Shown one piece after another: positions 1-50,184 of a DNA stretch of 64,000 bases (position 1 is the stretch's first letter; every line of letters starts with the position of its first letter). Made by a program: the position numbers and the translations under genes. The stretch comes from Schaalia vaccimaxillae DSM 15804. GTDB taxonomy: Bacteria > Actinomycetota > Actinomycetes > Actinomycetales > Actinomycetaceae. The notes beneath the pieces are model-generated. The model was not told where the DNA came from, did no database searches, and saw only the letters and a list, made by a program, of their open reading frames with translations. The stretch is from contig NZ_ATUX01000005.1 of the NCBI RefSeq assembly GCF_000420425.1, positions 62,001 through 126,000 on the forward strand, read 5' to 3'.

Positions 1-2510
1 AGTCCGTTGGTGCTGGCTTGAGCTAGTGCTGCTGCGTCATTGACACCATCGCCGACCATGGCGACGGTGCGGCCCTCATCTTGTAAAGACTTGATGACGT
101 CGCGTTTGTCCGAGGGCATGACCTGTGCGATGACGCGGTCGATGCCGACTTGGTTGGCGACGTGGCGGGCGGCGTCCTCGTTGTCCCCGGTGAGAAGGAC
201 GGGTTCGATACCGAGGTTTCGTAGCTGCTCGATTGCTGGTTTGGAAGAGTCTTTGACGGTGTCGCGGACAACCAGTACCGCTACAACCTTCGCGATAGTA
301 ACCTCCGCCGTAGCAACGTCCGCGAGGGACGCCCAAAACGCTGGCGAGGGACGCCCAAAAGTTCCGCGAGGGACGCCCAAAAGTTTGCCGAGGGACGCCC
401 ATCTTTCCCCCGAGGGACGCCCATCTTCGACCACAAGAGCATCTGAGTCTGCGGAGACGACAGCTTCAGGAGTGCGGCGATCCACAACCGTCCCCTCATA
501 CCCCGCGTTGCGGACAACCTGCTCCAATTCCTCATCCGTGTGGGGCTGCGTCAACGTGATCGTCGCCGACTCCGTTGCAAGATTGGCTGCCGCCGTTACG
601 CCAGGAAGTTTGCGAAGCTTGCGCTCCACGCGCCCCACGCAAGACGCGCAGGTCATGCCTTGAACATCCATCGAGATGACCGCAAGTGGGTGCGCGAGGT
701 CACTGGCCGCTGTCCCACCATCGCCATTTGGGCGTCCCTCGCCAGAGTTTTGGGCGTCCCTCGCGAGTTCGGGCGTGTCATGCGAGGACGCGCTCTGCGT
801 CGTGTCACCGTGCGTCGTGCCTCCCGCATCTTCGGACGCGGACGAGGACGAGCCAGCATCAACGTCCCAATTCGGCACCACTGCAGCGATAACTGCTGAT
901 GCGCCCGTCTGTTCAGCCGCCGACGCGGCCTCCAAAGAAGCTACAGGAATCTGGACTCCCAATTCAGACAACCACGATGCTCGGCCTACCAAGACAAGGT
1001 CAGTTCCGCCGTCCTCGCCCGCAACCAGCCCGGAAACACCCAAGCTCGCATGATTCGTAAAACTCTCAACGGGCGGCAACAACACGGACCTGGCTTGAGC
1101 ACCGGCGAAAATTGCGCGAGCAACCGGATGTTCTGATGCCGCCTCGACTGCTGCGGCTAGTGCGAGGGCGTCGTCCTCGTCAATGGGCGTCCCTCGAGAG
1201 AAAGATGGGCGTCCCTCGGCAAACTTTTGGGCGTCCCTCGCGAGGGAAGACGGGACGATCACCGACTCCAGCGACATTTTGCCCGTCGTCACAGTGCCGG
1301 TCTTATCCAGAACCATCGTGTCGATTGTCCGAGTCTGCTCCAAAATCTCAGCGGACTTAATGACAATGCCCAACTGCGAAGCCCGACCCGACCCCACCAA
1401 CAAAGCCGTGGGCGTCGCCAAACCCAAAGCACACGGGCACGCCACCACCAAAACGGCCACCGCAGCCGTAAACGCAGCCTGCACCGAGCCGCCCGTAACC
1501 AGCCACCCCACCAAAGTCAGGATCGCCACGACAATGACAACCGGCACAAACACCGCAGAAATACGGTCCGCCAAACGCTGGACCGGAGCTTTCCCGGCCT
1601 GCGCCTCCGTGACCATCCGGCCAATTTGAGCCAAAGTCGTCTCAGACCCCACGCGGGTCGCACGAACTGTCAAGGCACCCCACGTATTCACGGTTGCTCC
1701 AGTGACCTCATCGCCCGCCGCGACATCAACGGGTACAGACTCACCGGTCAGAAGAGACGTATCGAGGGCGGAATTGCCTTCCTCAATGCGCCCGTCGGTG
1801 GCGACCTTTTCGCCTGGGCGCACCACAAACAGGTCGCCAACTTTCAACGACGAGGCCGCAACCCGCTTTTCCTGACGTTCACCCGTTACCGGGTCTGCCA
1901 CCACCAAAGTTGCTTCTTTTGCTCCCAATTCGAGAAGCGAACGTAAAGCATCGCCGGCGCGGTACTTAACGCGGGCCTCCATCCACCTGCCGATGAGTAG
2001 GAAAACGACGATCATGCAGGCGCCCTCGAAATAGATTTCCGCGTGATGCCCGTGGACGGCGGCACGCGGGAGTAGGGACATGTGCATTGTCATGCCCAGC
2101 TGGCCGGCGCCCCCGAAAGCCAACGCCCACCAACTCCACAGGGCCGACGCGGTGACGCCAAGGGAGACCAAGGTGTCCATTGTTGTCGAGCCGTGGCGGC
2201 CCGCCTGCAGGGCAGCCTTGTGGAAGGGCCACGCGCCCCACGTTGTCACCGGGATGGACAACGCGGCGACCATCCACTGCCACCCGATGAACTGCCACGC
2301 CGGAACCATCGAGAGCACCATGGTGATAGCCGCCAACGGGGCTGTCACAATGATGTGGCGCTTGAGGACTTCGGCGTGTTTTCGGGCGCCTTCGCCAATG
2401 CGGGGTGCTGATGCGTCAGGCTCGACGGCAGTGGCTGGGCCGTGGGTACTGGTGGCGGGGGGCTGGTTGTGTGTAGCGGGTTTTGTCGAATGGGATATGG
2501 GGGAGGACAT
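1..2510 (-). CDS. copA: Copper-translocating P1B-type ATPase (partial, C-terminus off the left edge)
   Basis: Exports Cu(I) across the cytoplasmic membrane at the cost of ATP. The reading frame is open from ATG at 2510 to the window edge (about 836 residues); roughly 90-110 residues are missing. Visible in order: N-terminal membrane helices with no N-terminal metal-binding domain; a TGES actuator motif; the CPC metal-channel motif (CPCALGLATP, near residue 357); phosphorylation site DKTGT (about 400); SEHPVARAI (about 460); a GMTCASC heavy-metal-associated domain (about residues 600-670); TGDN (about 772); and MVGDGVND (about 816). Two things are odd. The metal-binding domain is nested inside the nucleotide-binding domain, and three in-frame arrays of a 22-bp repeat are translated (about residues 424-442, 582-594 and 696-730). 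It is last in the csoR-copZ-copA operon. Copper specificity is inferred from CPC and the neighbours. Confidence 0.93.
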   Translation of the reverse strand, partial: MSSPISHSTKPATHNQPPATSTHGPATAVEPDASAPRIGEGARKHAEVLKRHIIVTAPLAAITMVLSMVPAWQFIGWQWMVAALSIPVTTWGAWPFHKAALQAGRHGSTTMDTLVSLGVTASALWSWWALAFGGAGQLGMTMHMSLLPRAAVHGHHAEIYFEGACMIVVFLLIGRWMEARVKYRAGDALRSLLELGAKEATLVVADPVTGERQEKRVAASSLKVGDLFVVRPGEKVATDGRIEEGNSALDTSLLTGESVPVDVAAGDEVTGATVNTWGALTVRATRVGSETTLAQIGRMVTEAQAGKAPVQRLADRISAVFVPVVIVVAILTLVGWLVTGGSVQAAFTAAVAVLVVACPCALGLATPTALLVGSGRASQLGIVIKSAEILEQTRTIDTMVLDKTGTVTTGKMSLESVIVPSSLARDAQKFAEGRPSFSRGTPIDEDDALALAAAVEAASEHPVARAIFAGAQARSVLLPPVESFTNHASLGVSGLVAGEDGGTDLVLVGRASWLSELGVQIPVASLEAASAAEQTGASAVIAAVVPNWDVDAGSSSSASEDAGGTTHGDTTQSASSHDTPELARDAQNSGEGRPNGDGGTAASDLAHPLAVISMDVQGMTCASCVGRVERKLRKLPGVTAAANLATESATITLTQPHTDEELEQVVRNAGYEGTVVDRRTPEAVVSADSDALVVEDGRPSGERWASLGKLLGVPRGTFGRPSPAFWASLADVATAEVTIAKVVAVLVVRDTVKDSSKPAIEQLRNLGIEPVLLTGDNEDAARHVANQVGIDRVIAQVMPSDKRDVIKSLQDEGRTVAMVGDGVNDAAALAQASTNG
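323..422 (-). repeat. 22-bp tandem repeat array, 5 units, inside copA
   Basis: Five copies of the 12-bp core CGAGGGACGCCC (reverse complement of GGGCGTCCCTCG) start at 323, 345, 367, 389 and 411, exactly 22 bp apart, with variable 10-bp spacers. The array is translated in frame as part of copA. A 22-bp unit shifts phase each time, so successive copies read as GRPS, WASL and GVPR. Confidence 0.9.
730..763 (+). repeat. 22-bp tandem repeat array, 2 units, inside copA
   Basis: Two copies of GGGCGTCCCTCG start at 730 and 752. Orientation is opposite to the array at 323-422. It lies in frame in the linker before the nested metal-binding domain of copA. Confidence 0.85.
1185..1240 (+). repeat. 22-bp tandem repeat array, 3 units, inside copA
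   Basis: Three copies of GGGCGTCCCTCG start at 1185, 1207 and 1229. They are in frame in copA shortly after the DKTGT phosphorylation site, at the beginning of the nucleotide-binding domain. Confidence 0.88.
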
Positions 2511-2550
2511 GCTGGCCTCTAACGAGGTTGGGGGTGGAGTTGGAGAGGAA

Positions 2551-2796
2551 TTAGAAGTCTCGGGAGATTCCGACGAGTTCGAAGCCGGCCTCGGAGATGG
2601 CGTTGGTCAGTGCTTCGTCGTCAACGCCGTTGTCAGTAATGACGGTGACTTTGGAAGTGCCGCCGGAGTTGAGGATCACGTCGGTGTTTTTAACGCCGGG
2701 AACCTCGCTGAGTTCTTCGGTGACGGACATGACGCAGTGTTGGCAGGTCATTCCGTTCACGGCGAGTTCAACGGTGCGGTCGATTTCCATGGTCAT
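2551..2796 (-). CDS. copZ: CopZ-like copper chaperone (heavy-metal-associated domain protein)
   Basis: An 81-residue protein made of one HMA domain. The metal-binding loop reads GMTCQHC near the N-terminus and is followed by the usual beta-alpha-beta pattern to the end. HMA proteins of this size carry Cu(I) to CopA in the cytoplasm. ATG at 2796 is chosen because AGGAG lies 6 bp upstream and the HMA fold starts directly after it; the frame is open further upstream, but only through a repeat array. It sits between csoR and copA, all reading left, so it is probably co-transcribed and induced by copper through CsoR. Confidence 0.93.
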   Translation of the reverse strand: MTMEIDRTVELAVNGMTCQHCVMSVTEELSEVPGVKNTDVILNSGGTSKVTVITDNGVDDEALTNAISEAGFELVGISRDF

Positions 2797-2844
2797 GGTG
2801 TGCTCCTTGTTTGTTTGTGTATTTTGATTCGCGAGGGCGAGGAT

Positions 2845-2878
2845 GTGCGTCCCTCGCGGGAGTTTTGGGCATCCCTCG
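2845..2878 (+). repeat. 22-bp repeat array, 2 units, between csoR and copZ
   Basis: Diverged cores GTGCGTCCCTCG (2845) and GGGCATCCCTCG (2867), 22 bp apart, in the intergenic stretch between csoR and copZ. Confidence 0.8.
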
Positions 2879-2929
2879 CGGGGGCAGAGGGGAGGAGGGC
2901 GGGTGCGAAATGGTGGAAGTGAGCAAGTG

Positions 2930-3214
2930 TCAGGACTTGACGAGGCGGGCAATGGCTTTGGTTGCCTCGTCAATCTTTTCGGCCGCAGCCTCATCTGACT
3001 TGCGGGCTGCATCGACGACGCAGTGTGTCATGTGGTCTTTGAGGAGACACAAGGCAACTGAATCGAGAGCTGATTGAACGGCCGACACCTGGGTGAGGAT
3101 GTCGATGCAGTAGCCATCTTCGGACACCATGCGCTGCAGACCGCGCACCTGTCCTTCGATACGGCGCAGTCGGGCAAGATATTGATCCGTTGCTTCTGAA
3201 TAACCGTGAGCCAT
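2930..3214 (-). CDS. csoR: CsoR-family copper-sensing transcriptional repressor
   Basis: A four-helix DUF156 (CsoR/RcnR/FrmR) protein of about 94 residues. The Cu(I) ligand set of CsoR is present: Cys in EDGYC, then His and Cys in the KDHMTHC segment, spaced as in characterised CsoR. The helix-1 signature RLRRIEGQVRGLQRM is also present. In the apo form these proteins repress copper efflux genes and release DNA on binding Cu(I). ATG at 3214 has AGCAGG 6 bp upstream; ATG at 3220 is an alternative. A longer frame from 3271 would translate the operator and is rejected. First gene of the copper operon, so autoregulation is likely. Confidence 0.92.
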   Translation of the reverse strand: MAHGYSEATDQYLARLRRIEGQVRGLQRMVSEDGYCIDILTQVSAVQSALDSVALCLLKDHMTHCVVDAARKSDEAAAEKIDEATKAIARLVKS

Positions 3215-3245
3215 GTGCATCCTGCTTTCATTTTCATCATTCAAG

Positions 3246-3262
3246 ATACCCCTAGGGGGTAT
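3246..3262. promoter_or_regulatory. CsoR operator
   Basis: ATACCCCTAGGGGGTAT, a G/C-tract palindrome of the CsoR type, about 30 bp upstream of the csoR start. It probably covers the csoR-copZ-copA promoter. Confidence 0.85.
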
Positions 3263-3573
3263 GGGTGTCAACGGGGAAATCCGACAGAGTCAGATTTGAA
3301 GTCGTACAGGTGGCAGCGAGGCCCTCGGATTCGGTTCCGCTGCAGGATCACCCGCAAAATTAGACACAGTCGTTGGGTTGGCGGTCCAAGGCTAAACATA
3401 AAAACCGCGGAATTTCGCGGAAAATGCCTCAGCTCTTTTCAACTAGCGACCACGGCTGTGTCTATTTCAGCGCGTTCCCGCCGCTCGCCCAGCAAACTTC
3501 CGGGAAATAGTGGCATCCTTAGATACTAGGCAAGCAGGAGTGCCCCAGCGAGACAGGACTTGGGAGGGCAAAC
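3263..3573. other. Intergenic region between the csoR operator and the hydrolase gene
   Basis: No gene, RNA or clear repeat seen here. It must hold the promoter for the rightward hydrolase gene; GGAGG at about 3563 is that gene's ribosome binding site. Confidence 0.5.
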
Positions 3574-5327
3574 GTGTCGCACAATCACCGCGATCCGCAG
3601 CCCAATAGGTCCGATATTCCGCCATCATCCAGGTCATCAGCCTCGACTAGCACCTCTGCAAACCCTTCCCGTCCTGAGCGCTTGGAACCCAAGAAGAAAA
3701 GACGCGCTCGGATTCGCTCCAGACACTACGCGCCGCGTAGAGTGCCCCAGGGCTACGCGCCCGCCTACGCTCGTGCCAAACTCGTCCCTCTCGTCCCAGC
3801 CCTCATTGCCACCGTGGCCGTAGGCATTGCCGGTGAAGCCACACGCTTGCCTGAGAGTCTGCGTGAACAAGCCAGGAAACAAGCCCAATTCCTTGGTGGG
3901 GACATTTCGCAACGATCTCAACGAATCTTCTTTGACGAGCCCGGGCTCGACACGTTATTTGTGCGTGGGCTGGCTCGGACTGCCAAGCTTGGTGCACGAA
4001 TTGGGCGGACCTACCTTCAAGCGCAAAGTCTCTTGAATAAAACAAGGCAACGAATTGAAACTTTCCGCAATCGAGCCGACCACAACAAAGGCAATCAGCT
4101 CAACAGTCGCACGGCCCGCATCGAAGTCATGCTGGAACGAATGCCTCGCAGAGGATTTGAAGCATTGATGACTGGCATGCTCACCATGGGGGAACAGCAG
4201 TGGGAGCACTGCGAGGCGGCGACGTTCACGTCCAGGCGATTCGCGACTCAGCGGCAGAACCTCCAACCCTTAAACCTCCCAAGGGCCACCCCAAAGCCCT
4301 TCTGCGTCGGCCTGACCCTCCCAAGACCCTCGGTGACATGTGCGCCGACATCGATGACATGTATTGGTCGATGACCAAGGGACAAACGCTCAAGATCACC
4401 CGTGTCGGCCAAGATGATCGCCGCAGGTGGATCCTGTCCTTGCCGGGTACGGCCCACATGGACTTCACGTCGACTGCTAATCCGGCCGATATGGAAGCCA
4501 ACATTCGCGAGATGCTGGGACTGGCATCTGGAATCCGCGTTGGAGCAGTTGCTGCTCTCCATCAAGCTATGCGTCTGGATGGAGTGGCAGAAGATGCCCT
4601 CGCCAAAGAACCCGTGTTGGTGTGCGGCCACTCCCAAGGCGGGCTCATTGGCGTGGTGCTGGGTTCAATGGATCCAACCGAGGCGGGGGTCAATGTGATG
4701 GGAGTTCTGGGATCAGGCGCACCTGCACGAAGGATCCGTATGCGACCGGATGTGGCAATGCTGGCTGTGGCCCACGACCAAGATGTCGTTCCATCAATGG
4801 ATGGCAGCCCAGACCGAGCTCCCGATCAGAGGGTGCGCATTGGGCGCAAACTGGTTCGGCCTCGTAAAGATCCGCTCTACTACGCGCATTCGTCGGCCAC
4901 CTACACCGAAACCGTTCGCCAGCTGGAACGCAAGGTTGCGGTGGCGCCTTTCGGGCGGGTGGCGCGTACCGTTCGCAAGCTCCAAGATTTCCTTCCCACC
5001 GAGGGCGAGCCAACACGCGTGACTTTCTACGAGGTCTGGCAGGAGTTGGTTGAACCGGCCGAGTCGAGTCGTTTCGACACCTTTTTAAAGCTGGACATCG
5101 ATACCTCGTACGAGGCGGTTGACTACGGGTCCGATTATGCTCCGGCCCCTTTATTTACGCTGCCGGAATTTGACCGAGCGTCTTTCAACTTGCCAGATAT
5201 TGCATTTTCGAAGGTCTCATCCCTGGACTTGCCTAAGGTGGAACTGCCTAGAATCGACTTGGCTGCGAGCAGACGCCAGAAATCTACGAAGAACGATCCT
5301 GAGAAGAGGACACCCAACGATGAGTGA
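3574..5327 (+). pseudogene. Alpha/beta-hydrolase (lipase-like) gene, membrane-anchored, split by a frameshift
   Basis: Two reading frames together make one protein of about 583 residues. The first frame runs from GTG 3574 (GGAGG 6 bp upstream) to a stop at 4374. It encodes a basic, proline-rich N-terminus, one hydrophobic helix (about residues 70-88) and helical sequence to about 4190. The second frame is open from 4161 to 5327 and carries the catalytic region, with nucleophile elbow GHSQGG near 4629 and an Asp in HDQDVVPSMDG. A -1 shift around 4187-4205, near a run of five G, joins them. The joined length matches the intact relative at 10824-12518 (564 residues). This could be a true mutation, a sequencing error or phase variation. 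No classical slippery heptamer is present. Confidence 0.7.
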
Positions 5328-5928
5328 CGCTTCCCCGAATGGTCCCTGGCGTGAGGTGCGGCGGTGGATGCGCGCGGCACCGCCCGTGAATAAAGGCACT
5401 GCGCCCCAGGCTCCGCGTTTACCGCAGATTTCGAGCCCGTTGTTGATTGGCGCGCTGGGCTTGTCTGCGATTGGCGCAGGGGTAGCTCTGCGTGCAATGC
5501 GCCCCGCTCGCCGAGGAGGTCGGGCCGATCGCTTCACCGAATTGGTGGTGGAGGTGGTTGAGCAGGGTGTGGCCGAGGATACTCCTGCACGTCAGGTGAG
5601 GGTCGAGGTCGGGGAAGGTTTTGGAAAGCCGTCGCTTGTGACCGTGGACGTCATTGTTGCTCCGTCCGATGAAGCCAATGATGCGGATAAGGCACGCGAT
5701 CTTCTCGACCTCGTGAGTCGAGCGGTGTGGAATAACTCCGAGATCGCGCCGGTTGCGGTGCGCGCGAGGGTCCTGTTAGCACAGAACCAGAACGGCCCAG
5801 CGCTTGAAGATGAGGCGCGGGAAGTCGCGGATATGACGGTATTGGGCTTCGATGACGAGATTGCGCGCCCGGCGGATCTTTACGCTCGCTTTGGTGCGCC
5901 TGCCTCGGACCGTTCCTGGCGTCCCTGA
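5320..5928 (+). CDS. Hypothetical single-pass membrane protein
   Basis: A 202-residue protein starting at ATG 5320, which overlaps the end of the hydrolase gene by 8 bp, so the two are translationally coupled. One hydrophobic helix lies at about residues 37-56. It is followed by an Arg-rich stop-transfer stretch and a soluble acidic C-terminal domain of about 140 residues rich in Val, Asp and Glu. No family recognised. Coupling to a membrane-anchored hydrolase suggests a shared envelope role; this is inference. Confidence 0.75.
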   Translation: MSDASPNGPWREVRRWMRAAPPVNKGTAPQAPRLPQISSPLLIGALGLSAIGAGVALRAMRPARRGGRADRFTELVVEVVEQGVAEDTPARQVRVEVGEGFGKPSLVTVDVIVAPSDEANDADKARDLLDLVSRAVWNNSEIAPVAVRARVLLAQNQNGPALEDEAREVADMTVLGFDDEIARPADLYARFGAPASDRSWRP

Positions 5929-5941
5929 TTTCCTCTTTCTT

Positions 5942-6015
5942 CGCCGAGAGCAGACTTTGTGGTCGAAAATCGGCGAAAAATTGGCTAAAAACGACCATAA
6001 GGTCTGCTCTCGGCG
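5942..6015. terminator. Long hairpin between convergent genes
   Basis: Arms at 5942-5965 and 5992-6015 pair over 24 bp, with only two positions as G-T wobbles and a 26-nt loop. It sits between the end of the rightward membrane-protein gene and the end of leftward purB, so a bidirectional terminator is plausible. There is no long T run. Confidence 0.7.
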
Positions 6016-36863: not shown

Positions 36864-36897
36864 CGAAGGACGCCCAAAACTCCCGCGAAGGACGCCC
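36864..36897 (-). repeat. 22-bp repeat array, 2 units
   Basis: Two copies of CGAAGGACGCCC start at 36864 and 36886 (22 bp apart), in the intergenic region between the tad terminator and the helicase gene. Confidence 0.85.
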
Positions 36898-36926
36898 AAA
36901 ATCAGTGCGCCGCAGCCTAAGCAAAC

Positions 36927-44596: not shown

Positions 44597-44651
44597 CGAG
44601 GGACGCACATCTTTCTCTCGAGGGACGCCCATCTTTTCCCGAAGGACGTCC
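44597..44651 (-). repeat. 22-bp repeat array, 3 units
   Basis: Cores CGAGGGACGCAC (44597), CGAGGGACGCCC (44619) and CGAAGGACGTCC (44640); spacing 22 then 21 bp. It is oriented opposite to the array at 44762. Confidence 0.85.
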
Positions 44652-44761
44652 AAGCGTGTTGTCGAGGCCGGATCTAGCTTGTTTGCAGCTTCTCGAATCT
44701 CCGTGGTCGGGCTAGGCGGGAGTCAGGTCGCGATTGGTTGCGGCAGATTAAAGGCGGATAT

Positions 44762-44817
44762 GGGCGTCCTTCGGCAAACTTTTGGGCGTCCCTCGCGGGA
44801 GTTTTGGGCGTCCCTCG
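44762..44817 (+). repeat. 22-bp repeat array, 3 units
   Basis: Cores start at 44762 (GGGCGTCCTTCG), 44784 and 44806 (GGGCGTCCCTCG), exactly 22 bp apart. With the array at 44597-44651 it forms an inverted pair around about 110 bp. Confidence 0.88.
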
Positions 44818-50106: not shown

Positions 50107-50184
50107 GGACGTCTCTCGGGGGACTTTTGGGCGTCCTTCGCGAGAAAGATGTGCGTCCCTCGCGGTGGTTTTGTGCGTCCCTCG
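50107..50184 (+). repeat. 22-bp repeat array, 4 units
   Basis: Cores start at 50107 (diverged, GGACGTCTCTCG), 50129 (GGGCGTCCTTCG), 50151 and 50173 (GTGCGTCCCTCG), each 22 bp apart. It lies in the intergenic region downstream of the acyl-CoA dehydrogenase gene. Confidence 0.85.

Follow-up and report, generated by a model that had tools for sequence, protein, structure and literature searches.

Why would a copper pump carry its metal-binding domain inside the part of the protein that binds ATP? The question is raised by copA, a gene at the left edge of a 64,000-nucleotide stretch of Schaalia vaccimaxillae DSM 15804 (contig NZ_ATUX01000005.1, positions 62,001 to 126,000; the window). Judged by its sequence, the CopA encoded here is a P1B copper ATPase without the customary terminal metal-binding domain (MBD). 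Its complete HMA domain, with the motif GMTCASC, lies within the last beta-hairpin of the nucleotide-binding domain (N-domain), at residues 612-674 (window 489-677).

Profile searches identify this domain clearly. PF00403 matches it at E 5.6e-15 in the genome search and at E 7.9e-14 in the protein scan, where the match is a single stretch (residues 614-672). It scores 52.2 bits against a threshold of 24.8, and its predicted fold agrees. The Pfam scan finds no HMA at either terminus and none before the first helix, and the protein has no MBD at a cytosolic terminus. The landmarks follow one another as TGE (residue 255), CPC (358), DKTG (402), SEHP (459), GMTCASC (618), TGDN (774) and GDGVND (820), so that the sole HMA stands after DKTG and SEHP and before TGDN and GDGVND. 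The original prediction, made from the DNA letters alone, had described an HMA nested in the nucleotide-binding domain of a CopA lacking an N-terminal one, and both the PF00403 scan and the motif order bear this out. The interval that it gave, 440-885, is wider than the domain proper, since it also takes in linker 2 and some of linker 3. The gene is laid out as follows, in the order of the protein.

1..2510, minus strand: copA, predicted Cu(I)-exporting P1B ATPase of 928 residues, of which residues 1-836 lie in the window (TIGR01511, 492.8 bits)
1431..1439, minus strand: CPC transmembrane metal site, residues 358-360 (motif)
1296..1307, minus strand: DKTG phosphorylation site, residues 402-405 (motif)
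1161..1265, minus strand: linker 1, residues 416-450, variable, between DKTG and SEHP (identity 0.33)
1125..1136, minus strand: SEHP ATP-binding motif, residues 459-462 (motif)
876..899, minus strand: N-domain strand preceding the insert, residues 538-545 (DSSP of the model)
678..872, minus strand: linker 2, residues 547-611 (model confidence below 50 at residues 555-605; genus identity 0.26)
489..677, minus strand: nested HMA domain, residues 612-674 (PF00403, E 7.9e-14; model)
639..659, minus strand: GMTCASC motif, residues 618-624, predicted to bind copper (motif)
300..488, minus strand: linker 3, residues 675-737 (model confidence below 50 at residues 684-723; identity 0.36)
255..290, minus strand: N-domain strand following the insert and returning to the P-domain, residues 741-752 (DSSP of the model)
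180..191, minus strand: TGDN, residues 774-777 (motif)
36..53, minus strand: GDGVND, residues 820-825 (motif)

In the structural model, the segments AVIAAVV (residues ~538-545) and KVVAVLVVRD (~741-752) form the two strands of this hairpin, as had been proposed, and the opened turn contains linker 2, the HMA and linker 3 in that order. Most family CopA proteins with an N-terminal HMA that were examined keep the turn tight, for example VAVGWDGAARGILIVAD and TVVAVGWDGAARGILIVADTVK. The earlier statement that ordinary CopA joins these strands tightly therefore holds for most of them but not for all, since the hairpin is lengthened in three of four inspected genes of genus g3, all of the N-terminal type (G044 is the exception). 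In genome G167 of genus g24 (locus L168), the hairpin carries about 60 residues of low-complexity filler built from SPERSDPSA-like peptide repeat units and no HMA, the HMA of this protein being N-terminal. The lengthened g3 hairpins and the G167 filler fit the permissive loop that the original prediction had envisaged.

Structure prediction had been suggested as a check, and AlphaFold modelling shows a folded HMA on low-confidence linkers between intact hairpin strands. Two models were made, and both input alignments were given N-terminal HMA pieces of other loci for HMA depth. The model of window CopA (residues 1-836) has a mean predicted local distance difference test (pLDDT) of 79.5 and a predicted template modelling score (pTM) of 0.63. 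Its HMA consists of strand 610-617, helix 622-633, strands 638-643 and 648-653, helix 659-668 and strand 672-679, with pLDDT blocks of 92-97 across residues 611-680 and values below 50 on both sides (555-605 and 684-723). A similar model (pLDDT 88.7, pTM 0.80) results for the full-length CopA of Actinomyces marseillensis, whose linkers are shorter, and the best structural matches of this model in the PDB by Foldseek are copper ATPases. The nested HMA is thus predicted to be well folded, the N-domain hairpin to be intact and the linkers to be flexible.

Conservation, measured as mean pairwise identity over 28 genus sequences, points the same way. The nested HMA reaches 0.73 at a constant length of 63 residues, compared with 0.70 for the A-domain, 0.71 for the last N-domain strand plus P-domain, 0.74-0.80 for the transmembrane parts and 0.55 for the N-domain. 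The flanking linkers drift in sequence and length, with identities of 0.26 (28-69 residues) and 0.36 (27-82 residues). Both cysteines of CxxC are kept in all 53 nested CopA rows classified, where the motif reads GMTCASC in 45, GMSCAAC in five, GMTCAAC in two and GMTCGSC in one. The HMA looks to have been retained as a working copper site, with linkers that appear little constrained.

The layout is widespread among relatives. Genus g1, to which the window genome (G000) belongs, comprises 35 genomes, and the family Actinomycetaceae 213 genomes in 36 genera. Every genus genome has a CopA-like match at E <= 1e-30, and 33 of the 35 have the nested HMA; the other two are undecidable, G001 having a run of N over the site and G031 being 88% complete with no HMA match. 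An N-terminal HMA is absent in 32 of the 33 nested genomes, those with the N-terminal part in view; in the remaining one, G032, the contig is cut at the N-terminal part and the one HMA match of the genome is the nested HMA. The copA of Pauljensenia hongkongensis HKU8 (G008; L036/L025) is split in two frames, the break lying after the N-domain strand and ahead of the nested HMA.

Across the family, a profile of 12 nested segments, with HMA and P-domain required in a single unbroken match, found 61 genomes, and inspection of open reading frames added G211, giving 62 of 213 in nine of the 36 genera. Because the profile missed G211, this count is a lower bound. In all of the 62 but G147, the HMA was also seen to be nested within the reading frame. 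The nested genomes are distributed as g1 33/35, g10 4/4, g17 11/11, g20 1/1, g21 1/1, g24 2/4, g25 2/2, g30 5/6 and g35 3/3; the g30 exception, G187, has an N-terminal gene from another branch, near g13 and g15 in the core tree. In the remaining 27 genera (inspected as 11 plus 16), each represented by the CopA loci of one genome or more, no nested HMA was seen; many loci among the 16 are cut before the N-terminus and so show only that absence.

The two positions exclude each other in these data. Of 40 complete family loci, 23 have the nested HMA, 17 have an N-terminal one and none has both. A broader classification of 146 CopA rows, which counts two genomes twice (L034/L024 and L035/L030), contains 53 nested, 42 N-terminal, 33 with two N-terminal HMAs, 17 with N- and C-terminal HMAs and one with none, and no row combines an N-terminal with a nested HMA. 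Two unusual genes also appear in the family. A nested CopA-like gene in genus g21 (L154, G161) has the membrane motif CAC instead of CPC. In genus g24 (L234 and L207, G166), a CopA with an N-terminal HMA has a DKTG-GDGVND gap of only 112 residues; its N-domain seems to be missing, and the gene is perhaps defective.

Outside the family, none of the 77 outgroup loci from a named genome collection (L037-L113) is nested, although the frame of L040 ends before the site and L043 has no HMA. Genome samples were searched at a strict cut-off (E <= 1e-42 for the order), with up to eight candidates scored per genome: among 396 genomes of the order nine matched, all Actinomycetaceae, and among 396 genomes of the phylum G000 was the only match. 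In none of the 5000 best-scoring plasmid records does a single place cover 80% of the query, and the best row (Methylobacterium nodulans, 60%) is a P-domain with an HMA behind it, the latter in a frame of its own past the gene end. On this plasmid, pMNOD02, the HMA-bearing fragment (L223:4530-4900) follows a P1B ATPase gene, stands just before an IS6-family transposase gene and is missing from the PLSDB gene table. Nested HMAs in other phyla are possible.

Two trees indicate where the domain came from and how often it moved. The HMA tree (95 rows and 59 columns; built by a quick method that leaves most inner forks unresolved) joins the CopZ domains in one group with support 99, and opposite them the nested and N-terminal CopA HMAs are intermixed. 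Since the nested HMAs fall with those at CopA N-termini and outside CopZ, the domain appears to be CopA's own, relocated, and insertion of a copZ copy is rejected on this 59-column tree. The core tree, built without the HMA (62 rows, 583 columns), has some long branches, and its chosen outgroup does not form one side of a branch. In it, 37 nested rows lie inside one group of 39 (support 100/99), which adjoins genus g3 (99/98); the two N-terminal rows in the group are Bowdeniella nasicola and G167.

Position mapped onto the core tree needs three changes, two of them forced by starred branches. A single clade of all nested rows is rejected (p-AU, approximately unbiased test, 7e-135), whereas clades of the nested rows without g24 (p 0.565) or of the nested rows plus G167 (p 0.275) are not. 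G167 joins the nested genomes G164 and G165 at 100 in quick trees of both the front and the back part of the gene, which lends no support to a chimeric G167 gene, and its N-terminal HMA groups with the nested HMAs of the same two genomes (support 97). These sequence comparisons support well that the position of the HMA changed at least twice, by two nestings or by one nesting and one return.

The original prediction also supposed that repeats had helped to move the domain. The window contains a repeat family with a period of 22 base pairs and the core GAGGGACGCCCA, some units having one mismatch, in arrays of two to five units on both strands. Exact 12-mers of it occur 13 times in the window, against 0.01 expected by shuffling. 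Ten exact units lie in copA, all within the three variable linkers, in both orientations and with the frame unbroken. The arrays in and near the gene are listed here; the others lie at 36865-36898, 44598-44631, 44761-44816 and 50128-50183.

324..423, plus strand (antisense to copA): five 22-bp repeat units within linker 3 (repeat search)
729..762, minus strand: two 22-bp repeat units within linker 2 (repeat search)
1184..1239, minus strand: three 22-bp repeat units within linker 1 (repeat search)
2844..2877, minus strand: two degenerate 22-bp repeat units between csoR and copZ (repeat search)

An exact two-unit pattern has 52 matches in G000, against none for a reversed control pattern; it has none in the other 34 genus genomes, in which degenerate copies were not searched genome-wide. 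The 11-mer core occurs once in L183, the only such case among the other loci of the 146-row classification, and DNA folding of the five-unit array gives a z-score of 1.25, indicating no special structure. Repeat-driven transposition is rejected as the origin of the domain: the exact tandem pattern is confined to one of 35 genus genomes, as against a nested HMA in 33 of them and in eight further genera. Repeat units do stand in the linkers on both sides of the HMA, but this distribution implies that the repeats entered linkers already present. Most likely they are younger than the nesting of the HMA and mark sites of the protein that tolerate insertion.

The gene itself is intact. It runs leftwards from an ATG at window position 2510 and encodes 928 residues with no internal stops; its complete span is L003:3724-6510, and 277 bases including the stop (the last 92 codons) fall left of the window. 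CopA exceeds the cut-off of TIGR01511, the P1B-1 copper-translocating P-type ATPases (492.8 bits against 397), and falls below that of the CopA equivalog PRK10671 (461.5 against 1316). TGE, CPC, DKTG, SEHP, TGDN and GDGVND, which we take to be the P1B-1 motif set, occur in matching order, and FFYNV and MACSS fit the late-helix signature YN / MxxSS that we presume marks P1B-1. On this basis, CopA is a predicted Cu(I)-exporting P1B ATPase within a csoR-copZ-copA cluster. Rfam models gave no match at gathering thresholds over window positions 1-6000. The neighbours of copA are as follows.

2551..2796, minus strand: CopZ-like copper chaperone, a separate single-HMA protein of 81 residues just upstream of copA (PF00403, E 1.8e-12; 60.7 bits with NF047957, below its cut-off of 85)
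2930..3271, minus strand: CsoR/RicR-like copper-sensing repressor (NF052430 RicR, E 7.5e-37; 125.8 bits, below its cut-off of 175)

The nested HMA is probably a relocated Cu(I)-sensing regulatory domain, with the role proposed for N-terminal MBDs (probability about 0.62). Relocation and conservation come from sequence comparison and the fold from prediction; from these we infer the function. The single MBD, presumably regulatory, has left the N-terminus for the turn of the last N-domain hairpin. In its apo form, the HMA would dock onto the A/N-domain surface and keep ATP turnover low; loading of its CxxC, by CopZ or by free Cu(I), would release it and let the pump run. Because two long flexible linkers tether it to the N-domain, the HMA would remain beside the presumed docking surface, and the usual link to the first transmembrane helix would not be needed. 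In the available text of PMC7558416, the copper-free N-terminal site of CopA contacts the N-domain and is proposed to lower ATP hydrolysis.

Several points weigh against a sensing role. The accessible part of PMC11970713 ascribes inhibition to a flexible N-terminal tail, a feature that the nested MBD lacks in that form. It also reports conflicting effects of removing terminal MBDs, with AfCopA unaffected, SsZntA halved and LpCopA nearly lost, and in the excerpted PMC7558416 the turnover of AfCopA is influenced by such removal. Regulation is thus unsettled even for ordinary CopA. Moreover, eight of the 53 nested rows read CAAC or CGSC, though both cysteines remain, and the models place the HMA on the headpiece without reliability.

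The same evidence admits other answers. A more tentative one, rather doubtful as a whole, is that the HMA moved at least twice between N-terminus and hairpin, never occupying both, and that nesting creates a distinct regulation of the tethered nucleotide-binding domain; the trees support the double movement well, and the distinct regulation is a conjecture. Unlikely, too, is direct gating of the nucleotide, an action of copper on ATP binding that the original prediction had raised, in which copper on the nested HMA would alter ATP affinity through the hairpin, a mode impossible for terminal MBDs. Such gating would suit an insert that sits, in the model, in the N-domain hairpin itself and a layout present in nine genera, but linkers this long, drifting (28-69 and 27-82 residues) and low in pLDDT make mechanical coupling through the hairpin unlikely.

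Copper delivery is a further improbable reading: the nested HMA would take Cu(I) from CopZ and hand it to the membrane entry site. A small separate CopZ-like open reading frame is present in 38 of the 40 whole family loci and, in the window, immediately precedes copA; both CxxC cysteines are kept in all 53 nested rows, and the MBD of yeast Ccc2 is reported to work in this way (PMC11970713, in part). Anchoring the HMA on the N-domain in place of the first transmembrane helix, however, brings no evident gain for delivery, and the available passages describe an AfCopA whose transmembrane domain is supplied directly by CopZ (PMC11970713) and whose membrane-site loading is independent of the N-terminal sites (PMC7558416). 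Nor is it probable that the move was neutral, the domain keeping its role in a permissive loop and its position having no functional consequence; at least two position changes, the lengthened g3 hairpins and the low-complexity insert of G167 would suit this, but the HMA is strongly conserved at its new site and an N-terminal copy is absent from every nested gene with its N-terminal part in view. An assembly chimera, or an HMA gene that is separate in relatives and was wrongly merged into copA, has only the oddity of the layout in its favour and is effectively ruled out, since 62 of 213 family genomes share that layout with the HMA as part of copA and quick trees place the window gene among g1 and g30 rows by its front part as well as by its back part (supports 80 and 85).

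Compared with known systems, window CopA shares its membrane core and A-, P- and N-domain motifs with CopA carrying an N-terminal HMA, such as LpCopA and AfCopA (PDB 4bbj, 3rfu, 7r0g, 3j09), entries that rank among the top Foldseek matches for the A. marseillensis model and the PDB sequence matches of the window protein. Unlike theirs, its MBD lies inside the N-domain hairpin, and none was found terminally. P1B ATPases with N- and C-terminal HMAs (17 of 76 outgroup rows, for example L062 of Lachnospiraceae and L096 of Spirochaetaceae) likewise have an HMA away from the N-terminus, but that extra HMA is still terminal and is added to the N-terminal one. CopZ and other single-HMA chaperones have the same fold and CxxC as the nested HMAs, which group apart from them (99). 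The plant P1B ATPases HMA6 and HMA8 also have N-domain loops of variable length, though these are disordered and the available portion of the source describes no inserted folded domain in them (PMC5089723). Copper-pump MBDs are described as terminal in the accessible part of PMC11970713, where sensing, inhibition or delivery is debated as their role. A search of the open literature, with subscription papers mostly outside its scope, returned no description of a nested HMA.

For the family, these findings mean that a whole clade kept the domain but tethers it to the ATP-binding domain and no longer to the membrane end, with species of g24 differing in its position. The tether point matters for the entry site in delivery models, and nearness to the A/N surface matters in docking models, so this natural rearrangement can help to separate the two. 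It also singles out the N-domain hairpin as a place into which an entire folded domain can be inserted, which would be useful for placing labels or sensors. More broadly, a rearrangement conserved in this way may help to reveal what the copper-binding domain does in copper pumps.

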